The notes beneath the pieces are model-generated. The model saw only the letters and a program-made list of their open reading frames with translations. It did not search any database and was not told the DNA's origin. DNA of 64,000 nt from Eremomyces bilateralis CBS 781.70 (lineage: Eukaryota; Ascomycota; Dothideomycetes; Eremomycetales; Eremomycetaceae), in contig NW_022985067.1 in NCBI RefSeq assembly GCF_010015585.1, forward strand, positions 1,462,526-1,526,525, read 5' to 3'. Made by a program: the position numbers and the translations under genes. Numbering within the stretch: position 1 is the first letter of the stretch; each line of letters opens with the position of its first letter. Positions 7,181-60,762 of this stretch are shown here, piece after piece.

Positions 7181-8792
7181 TCAAGGGCCTTTGGCCTCGT
7201 ATATCAGGCCATTGCAGCTCAACACCGTTCCAAGACCCTGGTGGATTTCGACCTGGAATGGCTGGAACGGGACTCTTTCACCATCGATGCTAATGTATCC
7301 GTCCTCCTGATTCTTCGGGATGAGGCGGTACGCGACCACCTTCTCGTAACTCACGTACTTTTGCTGAAACCAGGTGTCGTTCGCAACTGCTCCCATGCAT
7401 TTGAATGCCTGCAGCCGCGGGACGTCGCTGTACATCCGCACGAGATCGATATGGCCGTCGTACGGGAGAGAGGCAGGGAATATTTTGGTGTCGGGAGCCA
7501 AGTAGGCCATGGTGCCTGCAATGAACATGGCCATCTTGTCTTCGGGATTTGTCTCCCACGACTCGGGGATTGGGTCATTGATGGTGCCAAATCGAAGCGG
7601 TGGAAGTGGTGCATCTTCCCCTACCGCCGGCCGCTTCCATGACTTCTCGATGGGCTGCGTGGTTTGTTCTAAATAAAATGACTTGATGTCCTCCTTATCC
7701 TTGATAGCTGTGCAGATGGCGATGTCGCAGGGGTACGTCGCCTTGCGGAGAATGCGAGTTACCATTCCGTACGTAAACCGTTCGGCGCCCATCCAGCGGA
7801 GATGCTCGGTCGCGAGGTCGGATTCGGCAATCTGGCCGTATGACTGCGAAAGGAAGGAAAGGGTACGTTGATCCCCCTGTGTGATGGACATCAGGTCGAG
7901 GGGTGTCCGTACCCCCTTGACGACTCTCAACGCAGCTAGGCTCGGGCTGTCTGTGCCAGCGAGATTTAAACTCATGGAGTTTCCGCTACCGCAGGGAAGT
8001 TGGACCACGGCAATTTTCGACAGCGCATATGCAGCATTTGGCTTCTTTGCAAGGCCGTTGAACACCTCGTACGGAACGCCGTCCCCGGAGCAGCACGCTA
8101 CCACATCCCATGCCTCAACGTCGAGGGCTTGCGCGATCTCGACGCCATGTCCATGATATTCCGTTTGTTCCACTGAGATTGTGCAACTAGCCCCAGCAAA
8201 GATCGGCTCGATGTCTCGAAGGTAGTATTTCGCTGCTTTTCCTTGTCCTCCGAATGGATTGATGATGACTTTGATGCGCTTGTGCAATAGCGCCTTGCCA
8301 TAAGCAAGGCTCAGGAGGCGAGCGACCCACGTTTCCACGTTGTCCAGGGCAGTTTTGTCAATTTGATATGATGTGAGTATAGGACGGGCCGTGGAGGAGG
8401 TGGGATGTACGGCGTAGGTGATTGTGACTTGGGTTGACATATGAGACACCCAAAGGATGTCAGAGTAGGGAATGGACTTCGTAGGGGAACGGGCTAGACA
8501 CTATGAGCTCCTATGCGACCCAATGTTAGGCGCTGGATGTAATACGTACCGCGACGCTTCAAGGGTAAACCGCAACTGCTGGTCCTCTTTGTGACAGGCT
8601 CATCCTCTGCCAAATGTCAGAATCTGAATCTCGACTCCCAGGGATGGATTTATTACCTAGTACTAGTAACGAGTCTGTTCCCAAATTCAGAGTCGCGCCT
8701 TTGCCCGTCCGGAGCATCAAGGTAATGTCCCCGGAAGCATCGGGAGGATGCGCTGCTGCTTCCGGGCTGGATTCATGGAATGGATTCGCCAT
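7181..8792 (-). CDS. Sphingoid long-chain base kinase (Lcb4-like, DAG-kinase catalytic domain)
   Basis: On the minus strand three exons (8792-8657, 8606-8550, 8493-7181) with introns of 50 and 56 nt give 501 residues, the usual length of fungal Lcb4 proteins. Start MANPFHESSP is the first ATG in frame. The short middle exon supplies SSCGLPLKRR, and the third opens RSPTKSIPYSDILWVS, the family's N-terminal linker. The catalytic domain shows IINPFGGQGKA (about residues 142-152), the nucleotide-binding SGDGVPYEVFNGL (from about 200), LPCGSGNSMSLNL, and C-terminal DGHIDLVRM and DGYISIDGERVP. It phosphorylates sphingoid bases to their 1-phosphates at internal membranes. Assignment to LCB kinases rather than ceramide or DAG kinases rests on this motif set. 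Confidence 0.92.
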
Positions 8793-49202: not shown

Positions 49203-50580
49203 TCAACTAGAAGTATACAATGACGATGAGTCCGCTGCAGTGGATGATGACAATGCCGCCCCGTGCATCTCAACCCCTCCATTATCGACCGTCTCTACTT
49301 TTCCCGCCCAAAATGCGTGACCCCTACTCCTCGGCCTCCATGCCTCCCGCTCGCCGGCCTTGAACGCCGGGTGATACCAACGCAACGCGAACCACGCGCT
49401 CGCTATCCCGAGGAGCGCGCCCGCAATGACATCGATCCCGGAATTGTTGTAGTCGAAGTATCGGGAGCAGGTGACGATTAAGGCGGTGCATCCGGTGGCG
49501 AACGGGGCGATGAAGAGATATAGCGGGGCGGCGGCGGCGGCGCCCGACACGTTGTGGGCCGGAAACAGCCCGGATTGGTCGTTGATGTGAAGGAAGGTGA
49601 CGCCAAACCGGTAGCAGTAGTAGAGCGAGAAGTAGAACAGTCCGGACCAGGAGACTGATGCAACAGGTTAGTGAATGAGTTCCGCACCTGGGGTCGAGTG
49701 TGGGAATACAAACGAGTTGCATAACGGCTAGGAAAGCTCCTGAACGCGTCCCGCAGTTCTACATCTTGGAATTGGCAAATGCCTGGAGAGACGTAGATTT
49801 TATCTTGAAATAATCCCGTGGTAACCGTGGAGACAGTGTACTCTTTAATCCTCGATAGTTCCGGATGGCACCGAGCGATCATGTTCGGTCGCGGTTTGCC
49901 GATGCGTGTCTGGATCGCTTGGACCAAGACGAATCCAACGGCGAAGCTCATTGCGAGTCCGAGATACCCAACTGGAAACGGCGTTAGTACCTTCAAAAGC
50001 GTCAGGATTGAATCAAGTCGCACCATGCAAGTTCCAACGGAAATGGGGATTCATGAAGGCGTCTGACGGAGCCCATCGTTCCGTGCGACACCGCAGGCCC
50101 AGGACGATGAGCTCGACCATCAAGATGAGAACCGCCGGCACCGCGAGCGAGATGGTCCATAGCAAGTATTGGTTCATCGATTGGCCTAAGAATGGATATG
50201 AAATGGAGGGATCGTTGAGAGAGAACGGCCGAATTGCAGGCGTCACATAGTTGAGCCCGATCCCAATGCCGAAGGCGGATCTGATTCATCATTCTTAGCA
50301 TCGGTAGATCTCACGGCGTAGCAAGTGAATTGACCGCTTACAGGAGAATAAGCCAGTCTGTCACGTAGGACAGATCGACCAGGATCCGACCCATCGACTC
50401 ACGGAGGCGCGTCTGGATTTTGGCATTGAGGTTCCCAAGCCATGCACGGGCATTCTGAATCCAGAATATGCCTTTCTTCTTGATGTCGCCATAGGAGTCC
50501 TCAATCCATGCTTGGGCATTTTGCATCCATGTTTGGGCATTCTGAATCCGGAGTAGGACTTTCTCCTTAACTTTGTCCAT
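49203..50580 (-). CDS. PAP2-fold membrane protein lacking the catalytic histidines
   Basis: Four exons (50580-50342, 50280-50024, 49971-49714, 49654-49203) with introns of 61, 52 and 59 nt give 401 residues. The fold is that of fungal diacylglycerol-pyrophosphate/phosphatidate phosphatases: YVTPAIRPFSLNDPSISYPF, four to six membrane helices, GKPRPNMIARCHPE, DAFRSFPS and SRYFDYNNSGIDVIAGALLG. The key residues are changed. Motif 1 has Gln186 for the Lys of K-x6-RP; motif 2 reads SFPSRYAT instead of SFPSGH; motif 3 has Asn322 for the nucleophilic His of SR-x5-H-x3-D. Motif 2 ends at a GTTTGT donor, and any nearby alternative donor also lacks Gly-His. The N-terminal 70 residues carry repeated QNAQTW/QNAQAW/QNARAW units absent from normal PAP2 proteins. 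Likely a pseudoenzyme. Confidence 0.87.
50415..50560 (-). repeat. Coding repeat QNA-W in the PAP2-like N-terminus
   Basis: Three related units of about 24-27 bp (two adjacent near 50,510-50,555, one near 50,440-50,465) encode QNAQTW, QNAQAW and QNARAW. Nucleotide identity between units is high, pointing to recent duplication. Confidence 0.75.
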
Positions 50581-50887: not shown

Positions 50888-52636
50888 TCACACTTTAAGT
50901 TCGTCCAACCCCATCACAACCCGTTCCATCATCTGGTGCGGAGTCAAGGTTCCCAGTCTTTGGTGGGTGGCTCCTTCCTCCCACTCATACTGCAAACATT
51001 CGAAAACCAGCCGATGATAGCGAGTGCCGGTTTTCGCTCCCAAGGCAGGGACCTCATTTTGAAGGACGTTGGCTTTAAATTCCTCTCGGGCTCCCGAGTA
51101 CTGAGACTTCCATTCCAGCGTCTTCCACATGCCGATTTCGAGGAGCAATAAACCGAGGGCATAAATGTCGAACCCTTTGTGGAAACTCTTCTTCCACACC
51201 CCCATGGACTCAGGGTGCCGGTACATGAGGACCTCCTCGTTGCCTGTGCCATGCATCGGGTCGTAGATCATTTCAGTGAAATCGTGCTGACGAGACGAAT
51301 CCAGTCCCAGGACATACGGTGCGGACAGATCATGGTGTCCGGACGTTGGCGAGCCGAAGAAGATGATGTTGTGACAGCAGTACGACTTGTGGAGCCAGTC
51401 GAGAGAATGAAATGACCACAGCGTCGTTGCCAGGATACTAGCCAGTCGGAACCGCACATCAAGCTCGGGTGCGCTCTTGTTTGCACCATTCATCATCGTA
51501 TGAAGAGTCGGGAACTGCGCACGCTTCGAACTGGCCGTGTCGAGCGTTGTGAATACAACCGGGCACGCATGGATGATTCCGAAGCGATTAAACCTGGCGT
51601 CATCGGTGTATCCTAAACAATCCAACATATGCAAGTCCGGATTCCTCGAGTTACATGAATACAGCAACCGAGCAAGGTCGTCTATCCTTCTATGTAGAGC
51701 GTCACGAATTTCTTTGTTAAGGATACCCTTTTTCTCGGTATCGTAAGGGATCCAGTCGATGAGGATAGGAACATCCATATGCCTCGTCTGATTTGAACCT
51801 GGCGGGTGATAATTACCGGAGAGATCCAGCTTTTTGAAGAGGCCTGAGGCACGCTGTGGCTGCTTTTCGATGGGAACATCCATGCCACGTGCCCAGATCT
51901 GCTTCCGTGGCACGGACAACTGCGAAGACAACACTGGGAAAGGATGGCCCATCGCCATATTAATCCGCAATTGCTTCAGATGGACCAGATTGTTCAGGTA
52001 TGGGTATGGACCATCCGTAGCCGATGCCAATATCTCCAAGTGTCCAGTATCATGGGTTTGAAGCAACAGCTCGCTCGTCCAGGAACGCCGATATAGCCCC
52101 ACATGGCTGGGTGGAAACAGTTTTTCGAGCCTGTCGTTTAAGGCCCGAAGGTCTTTCAACAGCACTTCGAATTTCTCGGGGTCATCAATCACCCAATTGG
52201 CGCGCAATATCCAACCGTCTGGTAATTGATTCCCCGTATAATTTCTGGGGTCGGCCGCTCTGCTGTATAAATCCTTGTCGACAGATCCAGGCGACTCTTC
52301 CTGGAGCCCGTAAATGTCTTCCAACTTCTCGCAGTCCATAATGGTTTCCAACAGCCGACTCAATATCAATCGGGCCAGATCCTTGAGGCCTTCCGCACCC
52401 CATCCGCCAAACTCCTGCCACCGATCAAATTGATCTTTCTCCACACCCCATTGGCGGGCCCATGACAGGAGTCGGAATTCTTCAATCCGGATTCTTGCAA
52501 GCAAGCGCAAGGTATTAGGTCCGAGATTGTTTGATGCGGTGAAGGCTCGATAGCCTTTGACGCAACCGTCATAGAGCTTGTCGAGCGAGCCTGTGACGCC
52601 AGCGACATCAAAGGCGAATGCGGCTAGTTCTGTCAT
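50888..52636 (-). CDS. HeLo (HET-S/prion-inhibition-type) domain fused to a degenerate protein kinase
   Basis: Single exon, 582 residues from a clear ATG. The N-terminal ~210 residues match a HeLo/prion-inhibition domain (FAFDVAGVTGSLDKLYDGCV, RLLARIRIEEFRLLSWARQW, LLKDLRALNDRLEKLFPP), the membrane-active helical bundle of HET-S and related incompatibility proteins. The C-terminal half has a kinase-like order: RLASILATTLWSFHSLDWLH, a catalytic-loop equivalent (residues 416-423) where HRD-x4-N has become HKSYCCHN, a DFG-equivalent YVLGLDSSR, an activation-loop-like RHPES and a C-lobe (FDIYALGLLLLEIGMWKTL). Asp residues needed for catalysis are missing and I see no glycine loop or VAIK Lys, so it is a pseudokinase. 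A role in regulated cell death or non-self recognition is inferred. Confidence 0.86.
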   Translation of the reverse strand: MTELAAFAFDVAGVTGSLDKLYDGCVKGYRAFTASNNLGPNTLRLLARIRIEEFRLLSWARQWGVEKDQFDRWQEFGGWGAEGLKDLARLILSRLLETIMDCEKLEDIYGLQEESPGSVDKDLYSRAADPRNYTGNQLPDGWILRANWVIDDPEKFEVLLKDLRALNDRLEKLFPPSHVGLYRRSWTSELLLQTHDTGHLEILASATDGPYPYLNNLVHLKQLRINMAMGHPFPVLSSQLSVPRKQIWARGMDVPIEKQPQRASGLFKKLDLSGNYHPPGSNQTRHMDVPILIDWIPYDTEKKGILNKEIRDALHRRIDDLARLLYSCNSRNPDLHMLDCLGYTDDARFNRFGIIHACPVVFTTLDTASSKRAQFPTLHTMMNGANKSAPELDVRFRLASILATTLWSFHSLDWLHKSYCCHNIIFFGSPTSGHHDLSAPYVLGLDSSRQHDFTEMIYDPMHGTGNEEVLMYRHPESMGVWKKSFHKGFDIYALGLLLLEIGMWKTLEWKSQYSGAREEFKANVLQNEVPALGAKTGTRYHRLVFECLQYEWEEGATHQRLGTLTPHQMMERVVMGLDELKV

Positions 52637-53601
52637 GGTTTTAGGACGGGAGGGATGCAGATCCGGGGACCAGACGTTTCAGTTGGTTTAAACAGGTGAG
52701 TAACACTGCCACGCGTGGTGCGAACCGAGGAAACCAGAGACTTCAGACGTAGAATGATAGGCGACAGGGGGAATGAAAAGGGCTGGACAAAGCGCAACGA
52801 GGCTATCAACCACGCTGAGTTCGTAAAGGATCCAGAAGGCAGATTAATCACGAGATATTAAGAGCAACGGAAGATCGGAATGCTCCTATTTTCGGGAGCT
52901 TTTCGTGGTGATTCACCTGGTTGCACTACTCCAGATGTGTTGGACGGACGATGCAAGTCGCGGGATGTCCGCTTGACGAGTGCACGCGGCTACCACGTCA
53001 TTGGCGACGCTTGAAGGGCATTATCAAAAGGAAAGAGTTAGCCATGCCTATAATTATTGGAACATAGGCAAAGACTAAGACATCGGGATCAGAAAAGCGG
53101 CGACTAAGATGGAGGTCCGAAAACCTTCAAGGAGCACGCAGTTCAACTCGAAACAAACGGAGCCAGGCACCCCTAATCGTCGCCTTTCTACCTGAGGCGA
53201 TTGTCCAATCAGCGATCTCCTCCAAGTGGCTGAAAGCCTCCTTAATCAAAACATCCATATTGAGGCTTCACCTTCCGTCTCCCCATCCTGCTTTGACATT
53301 GGCAATTAATATCTTGACCTAAAATCAGGTAAGCCTACAAGGGCTACAATCGAGAATAATATACTCAGCCGCGCGAGATGGATCGTACAAATATCCCTCA
53401 AGAGATCAGGTTGAGGCCGCGATCTGACCTTGTCCCTCCTCTTAACATCCCATCTCATAAAGCCGTTGGTTGATCGTTTCGTTTTGCTCACAGTCGTTAC
53501 TCATCAGCAGTCCTTAGTCGTTCGTTTGACGTGTCCATAGCATATTTGAAAGTGTTACTGTTGGCTACTAGTTCAAATAATTCTTCGTTATCTTGTCAGT
53601 C
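52637..53601. other. Intergenic region between divergent genes
   Basis: About 1 kb between the HeLo gene (minus) and the CFEM-like gene (plus). No repeats or coding signals were found; it presumably holds both promoters. Confidence 0.5.
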
Positions 53602-54340
53602 ATGAAGGCATCATGGATCCTGGGCGCTGCCCTCCTATCCCACACCGCCGTCGCGACCTTCTTGCCTCCACCTTGTGTCAAGAAATGTATCAAGGAGGTC
53701 GGATGCGATCTTCTTGACCTCAAGTGTAAGCGACGCTAACCCCGGCCATATGAGACGTTACAGCTCATCATATCACTTAGGCATCTGCAGCAAATCCGAC
53801 GACTGCGACGCCGGTCCCAGCTTCTTCGACTGCGCCGAGAGCGAATGCGGCGACAGCTTCCGCAGCGACAAGATCATTGACAAGCTCCAAGGCCTCTGCG
53901 GCAAGAAGAACAAGCCCTTCAAGCACCCGGGCAACGAATGCCCGAAACCAAGCACGCCCGGGAAGCCGCCGCAGAGCAAGCCTCCATCCATAAGCACCAA
54001 GGAACCCCACCCGAAACCCACCAAGCCTCCCGGCTCGAAGCCGCCCCCAGAGACGCCGAAGCCATCCACCCTCACGCAGGTAACCGTAGTGCCGGTCCCG
54101 TGCGAGGCGTGCCAGTCGAGCAAGACCCCTGACGCACCGAAGCCGAGCGGCTCAGGGAAGCCTCCAAGTGGAGGGACCGGGACACCGCCGAAGCCGTCGG
54201 GCAGCAAGCCATCAAAACCGACTACGGGTCCGTCGGCATCGAAGCCGGCGCCGCCTAGCTTTACGGGCGCCGCTTCGTCGGTTTCGGTGGAACGGATGGG
54301 TCTTTTGTCAGGGCTGCTCGCTATGCTGGCTCTGTTCTAG
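53602..54340 (+). CDS. CFEM-like, Pro/Ser-rich GPI-anchored protein
   Basis: Two exons (53602-53725, 53781-54340) around a 55-nt intron give 227 residues. Signal peptide MKASWILGAALLSHTAVA. The first 70 mature residues carry nine Cys in a CFEM-like order: PPCVKKCIKEVGCDLLDLKC, then ICSKSDDCDAG (the CxC pair is made across the splice), FFDCAESECGD and a last LC. A long Pro/Lys/Ser-rich spacer follows (GKPPQSKPPSISTKEPHPK), then a C-terminal hydrophobic tail (MGLLSGLLAMLALF) as for GPI attachment. CFEM proteins bind heme or serve as wall adhesins and effectors. The extra Cys and the lack of a clear heme-ligating Asp context leave heme binding open. Confidence 0.83.
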
Positions 54341-57566: not shown

Positions 57567-60204
57567 CTAATTACTCCATTCTAGGAGAGTCGCCAGTGAA
57601 GATTGAGTGTGAGGATGGTCAATACCTAATGCCTTTTCCTGCAACGCTAAGCATTCCGACATTAAATTAGTAGCATCCTGCTGCCGATCTTGACCTTTCC
57701 ACGTAAATGCGAGGTTGGTCCTGCTGATCAGCGTGTCTGGATGCTCTGCGCCAAGCACCCTCTTTCTCGTCTCTATCACTTGCACCTCCAGCTCTTCGGC
57801 CTCCTTCCATCGGCCTTGATTCCNNNNNNNNNNNNNNNNNNNNNNNNNNNNNNNNNNNNNNNNNNNNNNNNNNNNNNNNNNNNNNNNNNNNNNNNNNNNN
57901 NNNNNNNNNNNNNNNNNNNNNNNNNNNNNNNNNNNNNNNNNNNNNNNNNNNNNNNNNNNNNNNNATGCTGGTCAGCGTGGAAGGATTCTCTGCGCCAAGC
58001 ACCCTCTTTTTCGTCTCCATCACTTGCACCTCCAGCTCTTCGGCCTCCTTCCATCGACCTTGATTCCTGTACGTCGACGCCAGGTTAGCCATGCTGGTCA
58101 ATGTGTCTGGATGCTCCGCGCCTAGCACCCTCTTCTCCATATTGAACACTTGATTAATCGGTTCTTCAGCCTCAGTCCATCGCCCATCCTCGTAAAGACA
58201 CATTCCGTACCTCCACATAAGATCCATCCTGGGTTTCCAATCTTTATTCACAAGATTGGACTCTAGCACATAGCGCGCATGGGGCATGTAAGCCCTCCAG
58301 ACGCTTCGGTTCTCGTGGTTATCATCTGGGAAAACTTCTTCTAGTCGCACAATAGCTTTCTCGGTTGATTGCGCAAGCAGCCCCTCTTTCCGTAACCAGT
58401 TCCGCGTTGCTAGATGCACCAGCCGATGGAGATCGAGGCATTTGTCGGCCGGTCGTCTGTTGACGAACGAATACGCGTTGAGCGTTCCGATCGCGCCCGT
58501 CTCCTTATTCCGCGACGCTCCTGGCGGAAGAAGAGACTGCGGAATGTCCTTTGGCTCTACACAGGCCATGAACGATAAGTAATCAGCCGCCAGCCCGTCG
58601 CGCCGCCGGATTTGGTCAAACGAAATCAGCCAGGTTGTGGCAACCGGATTGTTGACGTAGCGATACCTCCCATCGTCTTCAAACTCCTCGCTAAGAAGTT
58701 CAATAACCCCCGCCTCTTGCTCAGCCAGGAGTGAAAGATAGTCTGCAATTGATATCGCATTCTCGTTGATGTACGCTGCTGCCTGAACAATGGCTAGCGG
58801 AAGGTAGGTGAGTTGTAAAAGCAACGCACTAGTGTTTTCTCGACAGTTGACGAGATCCGGCTTGATCAGGCACTTCCCTAGAAGTTGGGCAGCCGCATCT
58901 TCTCCCATCGCCGGAACGTCCACGACGTTCTGTTGTGCGAGCTTGACAGCTATTTTCCTGTCGCGCGTCGTGAATACAACCGCTCCTTTCTTACTCTTCG
59001 GGAGGTAGTCTATTAAAGGGTGCGATTCCTGCCCATACTGAAGCCCAGATCCAGCCTTGGTAATCCACATATCCCAGTCATCTGCATTGTCGAACACTAG
59101 CAGCCACTGGCCTGTAGTTTCTTCGCTTAGATGCGCCTGCACCAGCCTCTTTACGTCCGCCTTGTCGTCCTCACACCCAGGTATGCCAAGTTGCCGAGCA
59201 GCGTCAAGGTATGCTTGATGGAGACTTTCCGTGTTAGTTGCCGGTATCCAGATGACAGAACAGTCATGGTGCTCGTATTTTATTCGGAAGAGCGACTCGA
59301 GCACAAGCTGAGTCTTACCTACGCCGCCAAGCCCAGTGACGGCAACCTTTGTAGTGCTATCTTTGGCAAATATCATCCCTTCTAGCTCAGCAAGTTGAGA
59401 TCCGCGGCCTGTGAAGCGCGGGTTCCTTTCAAATTGCACGATCCAGGGAGCTTGTTTGGGGCTCGTTAGTGCTTGGTTTTGAGACTTTTGTATCTTCCTC
59501 TTAAGCCGGTCCAGTGCCTTTTTCTGCCCCTCGCCGTAGATGAGCGGCATCTGGATATCGAAAATGCCCAGGAGACAGTATGCGGCGTCTTCTTCTACGG
59601 TTGTCTGGCGTTTTGCTGCCCATAATAGCCGTTCGTCCGGGCTGAATTGAGACAGAGGCTTTCCCCGAAGGGCTTCGATAGCAATGCCGGTTATCTGACG
59701 AATCTCTTCTTCTCGTGACTTTTTACTTCCCAAAGGCTTGCCTTTCCAAGAGAAGAATTGGACTGATGACGGCGCTAGAAGTTCTTGAAGTGTCCATCCT
59801 CGCTTAAACCACCTGTAGTTCGGGAAGGCTAATTCTTCTGTAGCAGCAGGATTTTGACGGTCAGGAACGTCCGAAAGGTACACATAGCACCGAGTAGATT
59901 CGCGGTACCAGCGGAACATGGAGTTGATGGCTTCTGAGAGTTCGGTGAAGTCTGCCTTATTGATGCAGCATGTGTCTATCCAGAAATAGGATAGACCGTC
60001 GGATTTGGCTTGACCTTCGCAGAATATCAGCTTCTGGTATCCAGCCTTCTTCTTTCCAGCACGGTCCCAGATGTCCTTGAATGTGACTTCATCGTTGTCA
60101 CTTCCCCATGTATGAGAAAGTATGGCATAAGGAGGGATCGTGGCCGTGGCTCTGAAGGTCTCCAGAATGAACCTGCCGTTGCCGTCGAGCTTTAAGAGGT
60201 GCAT
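57567..60204 (-). CDS. HET / NB-ARC / TPR (NLR-like) incompatibility receptor, assembly gap in the TPR array
   Basis: The ATG at 60204 (MHLLKLDGNGRF) is chosen over a longer frame with a non-ATG start. Residues 1-746 are uninterrupted. The HET domain has IPPYAILSHTWGSDNDEVTF, AGYQKLIFCEGQA, FWIDTCCINK, RWFKRGWTLQELLAP. The NB-ARC has P-loop GLGGVGKTQ at 291-299, Walker B QWLLVFDNADD at 366-376, FTTRDRKIA at about 411, and LTYLPLAIVQAAAYI. Kinesin-light-chain-type TPRs follow with a 42-residue unit (NLASTYRNQGRWKEAEELEV). A run of 141 N cuts the array; after it, in another frame, one more repeat and a shorter last one (DATNLMSECLALQEKALGID) run to a stop at 57567. Such receptors trigger the HET death response on ligand binding by the repeats. 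It appears intact apart from the gap. Confidence 0.88.
57824..57964. other. Assembly gap (141 N) inside the TPR array
   Basis: Unknown bases. The gap falls between near-identical 126-bp TPR units, so the assembler most probably failed on the repeat. The flanking phases require a true gap length congruent to 2 modulo 3 (23, 149, 275 ... nt), which 141 is not. Confidence 0.95.
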
Positions 60205-60762
60205 CGTTGGCCGCAGTAATCGACAGATATTGTCATTATCGAGGAATCGTGACAACTAGTCTGGGACATTCGAGCGCCATGTTAGCAGAATTCTAGGCGT
60301 ATCATGATGGACTGCCATGGACAATGTGACCAGGCACAAGGCTGTGCGGAGCTTTTGGGATGCGCAAGGCTGAGCTGCATGCTTCTCCCGTCTATCTACT
60401 ATTATGAACCTCGTTCCGTCTCGCAGGAGCTCCGCATCACCTAAGAGGGTTAGTCTGTCAAGGCTATGGTAGATTAGAGAATCTGCTTTAATGACTGTAA
60501 TTTACGATAAATACGTGCGTATTATTAATCCCTTGCCAGTCTGAATCGCCCAAAAGTGGAAGTTTGATCAGCCACAAGTACCGATCTGCGTAGTGGAAAA
60601 AACTGAAATTGCTTGCAACAGAACGTATACTTTGGACGGCTTTGTAGCATTTTAACAGGATTATTTGACTTGGACTCGTTCTTCCTATGTCATTCGTGAA
60701 GAAAAAAAAGATGATGGTGACGCTGTACGGAGTACCATGGAAATATTGCCACGGCGTCTAAA

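Follow-up and report, generated by a model that had tools for sequence, protein, structure and literature searches.

The PAP2-fold gene and its relatives in the genome

The stretch of DNA analysed here (64,000 nucleotides of Eremomyces bilateralis CBS 781.70, hereafter ‘the window’, whose numbering is used throughout) carries on its minus strand, from position 50580 to 49203, a four-exon gene encoding a 401-residue PAP2-fold protein with altered catalytic motifs. The reading frame is open through all 401 codons, and this gene model agrees with the coordinates, the open frame and the four exons given in a preliminary description of the locus. The gene is made up as follows:

50342..50580, minus strand: exon 1; start codon, N-terminal extension of 62 residues containing three repeat copies, start of transmembrane segment 1 (TM1)
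50281..50341, minus strand: intron 1; 61 nt, GTAAGC..CAG
50024..50280, minus strand: exon 2; remainder of TM1, loop 1, TM2
49972..50023, minus strand: intron 2; 52 nt, GTGCGA..CAG
49714..49971, minus strand: exon 3; TM3, motif 1, loop with C200 and C231, motif 2
49655..49713, minus strand: intron 3; 59 nt, GTTTGT..CAG, with a CTAAC branch-like site
49203..49654, minus strand: exon 4; TM4 to TM6, motif 3 SRYFDYNNSGID, C-terminal tail, stop codon

All three introns are of the form GT..CAG, with plausible splice sites. Motifs 1 and 3 lie within exons, and the end of motif 2 adjoins intron 3.

The protein matches the Pfam PAP2 family (PF01569) over residues 168–347 with a score of 50.6 bits (E 2.1e-13; curated cut-off 27.2 bits), while no NCBIfam family matched it. 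In a hydropathy scan TM1, TM2, TM3, TM5 and TM6 rose above the threshold and TM4 (approximately residues 252–268) fell below it. The full PAP2 membrane fold proposed in the preliminary description is a less firm point than the rest of its observation, since five of the six transmembrane segments show in the scan and the fourth is placed by alignment only.

A search of the 26.6 Mb assembly (62 contigs) with Pfam PAP2 scored seven candidates, which correspond to at least five places: four above the cut-off, and the window gene, one exon of which scores 24.4 bits. A search with PAP2_3 gave no match in the same genome. With its short introns, its HeLo and HET domains and its DPP1-like genes, the assembly has the character expected of a filamentous fungus. 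Two of the four other places, L001 and L002, are what we take to be DPP1-like lipid phosphate/diacylglycerol pyrophosphate phosphatases; judged from their motifs, the other two presumably resemble sphingoid-phosphate and dolichyl-pyrophosphate phosphatases. The window protein shares with L001 and L002 an alignable core of 221 columns, in which it is 34% and 37% identical to them, respectively. It differs from both in its 62-residue N-terminal repeat extension, in an inserted stretch before motif 2, and apparently also in the positions of its introns (those of L002 having been placed by eye). A hidden intron within the inserted stretch was considered by eye and set aside, as it would be short, with a weak donor, and would break the frame.

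Substitutions in the three catalytic motifs

Alignment with L001 and L002 confirmed the central claim of the preliminary description, namely that Gln stands in motif 1, Arg-Tyr in motif 2 and Asn in motif 3 where catalytic residues are expected. Motif 1 reads QTRIGKPRPN, with the substitutions K186Q and D195N relative to both paralogues and with R193-P194 retained; motif 2 reads SFPSRYAT, with G248R and H249Y and with S247 retained; motif 3 (SRYFDYNNSGID) carries H322N and keeps S315, R316 and D326. The window protein therefore lacks the catalytic Lys, the Gly-His pair and the nucleophile His of its paralogues, and preserves, as had also been claimed, the surrounding RP, SFPS, SR and final Asp. 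Set against the patterns of active lipid phosphate phosphatases (LPPs), it has Q186 at the Lys of K-x6-RP, PSRY in place of PSGH, and SR-x5-N-x3-D in place of SR-x5-H-x3-D. A phmmer comparison with PLPP3 from the PDB likewise set Q opposite K and ‘ryat’ opposite ‘gHas’; N came to stand opposite H only in a second aligned stretch, which at −2.9 bits is not significant by itself. As a control, the other PAP2 places listed (four, among at least five in the genome) were inspected by eye, and all four retain the Lys of motif 1 as well as the His of both motif 2 and motif 3. Their motif 2 sequences are PSGH, PSGH, PSTH and PSSH; in the fourth, Gln stands where the final Asp is expected.

The intron 3 donor gives motif 2 the same spacing as in the paralogues and sets RYATL opposite GHSSS of L001 and GHSSF of L002. 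Alternative splicing that restores Gly-His, the outcome that the preliminary description had named as fatal to its reading, was rejected: among 32 GT/GC..AG combinations around motif 2 (introns of 20–200 nt), 10 ran into a stop codon, and none of the 22 that remained open yielded Gly-His.

In LPP-type enzymes, as described in PMC7564803, the motif 3 His is the nucleophile, the motif 2 His acts in breakage of the phosphate bond, and the substrate is held by the Lys and Arg of motif 1 together with the Arg of motif 3. Read against these assignments, the aligned residues indicate that both catalytic histidines and one of the three basic ligands are gone from the window protein and that R193 and R316 stay, and its phosphatase activity has very likely been lost. 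An enzyme that remains active through an altered mechanism or on an altered substrate, in which other residues near the retained R193, S247, R316 and D326 take over, strikes us as very improbable: the protein has lost its nucleophile together with the His of motif 2 and the Lys of motif 1, PMC7564803 assigns direct catalytic roles to both histidines and substrate holding to the lysine, and inspection by eye revealed no obvious substitute nucleophile.

Two further features lie close to the altered motifs. Two cysteines, C200 and C231, persist in the loop that joins motif 1 to motif 2. In the phmmer alignment C231 falls opposite a cysteine of PLPP3 and would fit the loop disulphide described for LPP-type proteins in PMC5798408, although this match depends on the alignment, since MAFFT with the paralogues instead sets their cysteine opposite S213. 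Separately, the motif 3 changes have left an N321-N322-S323 sequon where the active site used to be (49440-49448, minus strand); we doubt that it serves as a glycosylation site because it probably lies too near TM6.

Maintenance or decay of the gene

In our judgement the gene probably encodes a pseudo-phosphatase, a catalytically dead member of the fungal DPP1/LPP branch of the PAP2 superfamily, and is still maintained as protein-coding. The alternative, to which we assign a clearly smaller though appreciable likelihood, is early decay, in which a divergent DPP1-like gene lost its function recently and its catalytic residues drifted before any stop codon arose.

Composition is one of three indirect signs of maintenance. 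The GC content at fourfold-degenerate sites is 143/207 for the gene, as against 83/172 in its own introns (p = 4e-5) and 274/565 in its flanks (p = 4e-7), and is similar to that of the paralogue L001 (150/224); over the whole gene it is still gene-like, contrary to what decay would suggest. A simulation of neutral mutation starting from L001 (1500 runs, with stops counted after the first motif change) points in the same direction. When four of 12 motif residues had changed, the runs held a median of five stops and only 3.1% held none, which is the situation of the window gene, with four catalytic changes and no stop in 401 codons; at five changes the median was eight stops and 1.3% of runs held none. 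The simulation ignores indels and splice sites and is conservative in that respect. The search of the genome with the DNA of the gene returned a single match, the gene itself, and we therefore rejected a recent duplicate as its origin; the absence of a near-identical copy also speaks against decay.

The pattern of substitution is less favourable to the idea that the active site was a particular target. L001 and L002 agree at 95 aligned core positions, of which the window protein keeps 55 and loses 40. Among these, five of the 12 motif positions (as chosen by us) have changed, compared with 35 of the 83 other shared positions (Fisher p = 1). An active enzyme should have lost almost none of the 12. 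The claim that exactly the catalytic residues had been lost did not survive this comparison: the motifs have lost their special protection and change as freely as other core positions, with R193, S247, R316 and D326 kept and the active site not singled out. In the 221 core columns, the residue that stands apart from the other two belongs to the window protein at 40, to L001 at 26 (p = 0.11) and to L002 at 21 (p = 0.02), which suggests that the core of the window protein has evolved somewhat faster without being unconstrained; this is the third indirect sign of maintenance, after composition and the simulation.

Several of these and other results weigh against a maintained pseudo-phosphatase. 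The equal rates of change at motif and other positions fit a simple loss of constraint, and decay draws support from this match and from the presence in the genome of two DPP1-like genes with intact motifs, which make redundancy possible. Exon 3, which encodes motifs 1 and 2, is the weakest of the four exons in fourfold-site GC, at only 24/43 (exons 1, 2 and 4: 23/34, 35/47 and 61/83). The simulation takes the motif changes as neutral, and the gene was picked for having them, so that in this respect it is not conservative; moreover, 35% of the runs with two motif changes and 12% of those with three were free of stops, and the argument thus needs at least four counted changes. No orthologue was found in the viral and genome contig collections, which lack fungal genomes. 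Finally, the motif 1 Lys ligand is lost, R248 and Y249 may block the pocket, and lipid binding itself is perhaps gone.

The searches beyond the genome can be stated briefly. The DNA of the gene had no match among plasmids, and tblastn found no relative in viral contigs (one pattern match with the protein, 46 with the alignment) or in genome contigs (seven pattern matches), both collections not being meant for fungi.

On balance we favour a non-enzymatic role over decay, without regarding it as proven. The part of the preliminary description that preferred such a role gains some support from the open frame, the fourfold-site GC and the neutral simulation; the selection that it invoked is a supposition.

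A possible non-catalytic role, and the surrounding genes

The N-terminal extension, which the paralogues lack, comprises the 62 residues ahead of M63, the first residue of the paralogue-like part. The start codon lies in a context with A at −3 and G at +4, whereas T occupies −3 at the ATG of M63. The extension holds three copies of (I/M)QNA(Q/R)(A/T)W, encoded by a 21-bp tandem repeat at 50503-50549 and a further in-frame copy at 50438-50458; the spacings of the repeat in the exon 1 DNA (21, 66 and 87 nt) are all multiples of three, a regularity in favour of a protein that is kept. At the protein level these correspond to spacings of 7, 22 and 29 residues, which at 100 degrees per residue place the copies on roughly the same face of a helix, and scanning in windows of 18 residues gives modest hydrophobic moments (0.13–0.46). 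We read the extension as an amphipathic helix that would be cytosolic by analogy with the LPP topology described in PMC7564803. Searching the genome with it returned only itself, with no second match, and derivation of the repeat from another gene of this genome was rejected.

Without a nucleophile (H322N) and without the motif 2 His, a phospho-histidine intermediate would be neither formed nor resolved. With less assurance, we suggest that R193, R316 and S247 may still serve in the uptake of lipid phosphates from the lumenal or outer leaflet. Binding without hydrolysis, combined with a cytosolic amphipathic repeat at the N-terminus, could then make the protein a sensor or carrier of lipid phosphates, or a partner subunit.

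The best precedent for such a role, in which lipid phosphates or partners would be bound and not hydrolysed, is the animal PLPPR family, for which a comparable mode of action has been proposed. As published descriptions have it, the PLPPR/LPR/PRG proteins combine the LPP fold with replaced catalytic residues, as the window protein does. According to PMC5798408, the histidine at their nucleophile site is always replaced by Asn or Ser, and the window protein has N322 there. For PLPPRs, PMC9520309 reports no activity against lysophosphatidic acid (LPA), in the sense of no agreed LPA phosphatase activity; it cites proposals of LPA sensing, transport and multimer formation, and states that direct LPA binding had not been tested. 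By this analogy the window protein may work like PLPPRs, which is no claim of descent from that group; the lipid sensing or scaffolding suggested in the preliminary description has the same analogy behind it.

Dead PAP2 proteins are an already known kind, documented in animals. PLPP7/NET39, placed in another PLPP branch, is a further case to which the window protein can be likened by published description. Its inactivity is put down in PMC7564803 to the loss of critical residues. According to PMC5798408, the FITM/Scs3/Yft2 proteins are related to the lipid phosphatase superfamily and of doubtful enzymatic status, and FITMs usually keep both triad histidines and have Glu for Asp. In the window protein, by contrast, neither histidine is left and the Asp is retained. 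Literature searches returned no title or abstract opening on a dead fungal DPP1, which is weak evidence of absence, as most subscription papers fell outside their coverage.

The remaining features of the window considered here are:

50888-52678, minus strand: HeLo and DUF7580 in a single frame of 596 codons (HeLo E 2.7e-28), ending 307 bp upstream of the PAP2-fold gene
48944-48195: ankyrin-repeat frame downstream of the PAP2-fold gene
57667-60255, minus strand: HET-NB-ARC-TPR frame (NLR-like), approximately 7 kb beyond the 5′ end of the PAP2-fold gene
53606-54340, plus strand: Cys-rich, then Pro/Ser-rich frame with a signal-like start and a hydrophobic end; by eye it resembles a glycosylphosphatidylinositol (GPI)-anchored wall protein, and it had no Pfam match at E 0.001
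7181-8500, minus strand: lipid kinase with DUF7493 and a catalytic domain of the diacylglycerol kinase type

The HeLo-DUF7580 frame is a candidate membrane-targeting cell-death protein. The neighbourhood suggests a self/non-self recognition type of locus, to which the PAP2-fold gene is linked by adjacency in a single genome. That the protein is a subunit or guarded decoy of such a locus, tied to the HeLo-domain and HET-NB-ARC-TPR genes, seems to us most improbable. The same-strand HeLo frame lies close upstream, the genome holds at least four HeLo matches, and PMC12881547 describes how HET-S is directed to the plasma membrane by its HeLo domain; against this, the adjacency is seen in one genome only, and the term PAP2 is absent from the main text of PMC12881547. 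Equally remote, in our estimation, is the broader scheme in which a fungal DPP1-type enzyme became a non-hydrolysing sensor of lipid phosphates with a new amphipathic cytosolic N-terminus, in parallel to the PLPPRs with their like change of His to Asn, and acts with the adjacent HeLo gene in membrane-damage or self/non-self signalling.

How inactive animal PAP2-fold proteins act is still debated. If orthologues of the window protein do not share its substitutions, it would be an ordinary diverged paralogue; if they do share them under constraint, this fungal protein would offer a simpler system in which to study the function of a dead lipid phosphatase.
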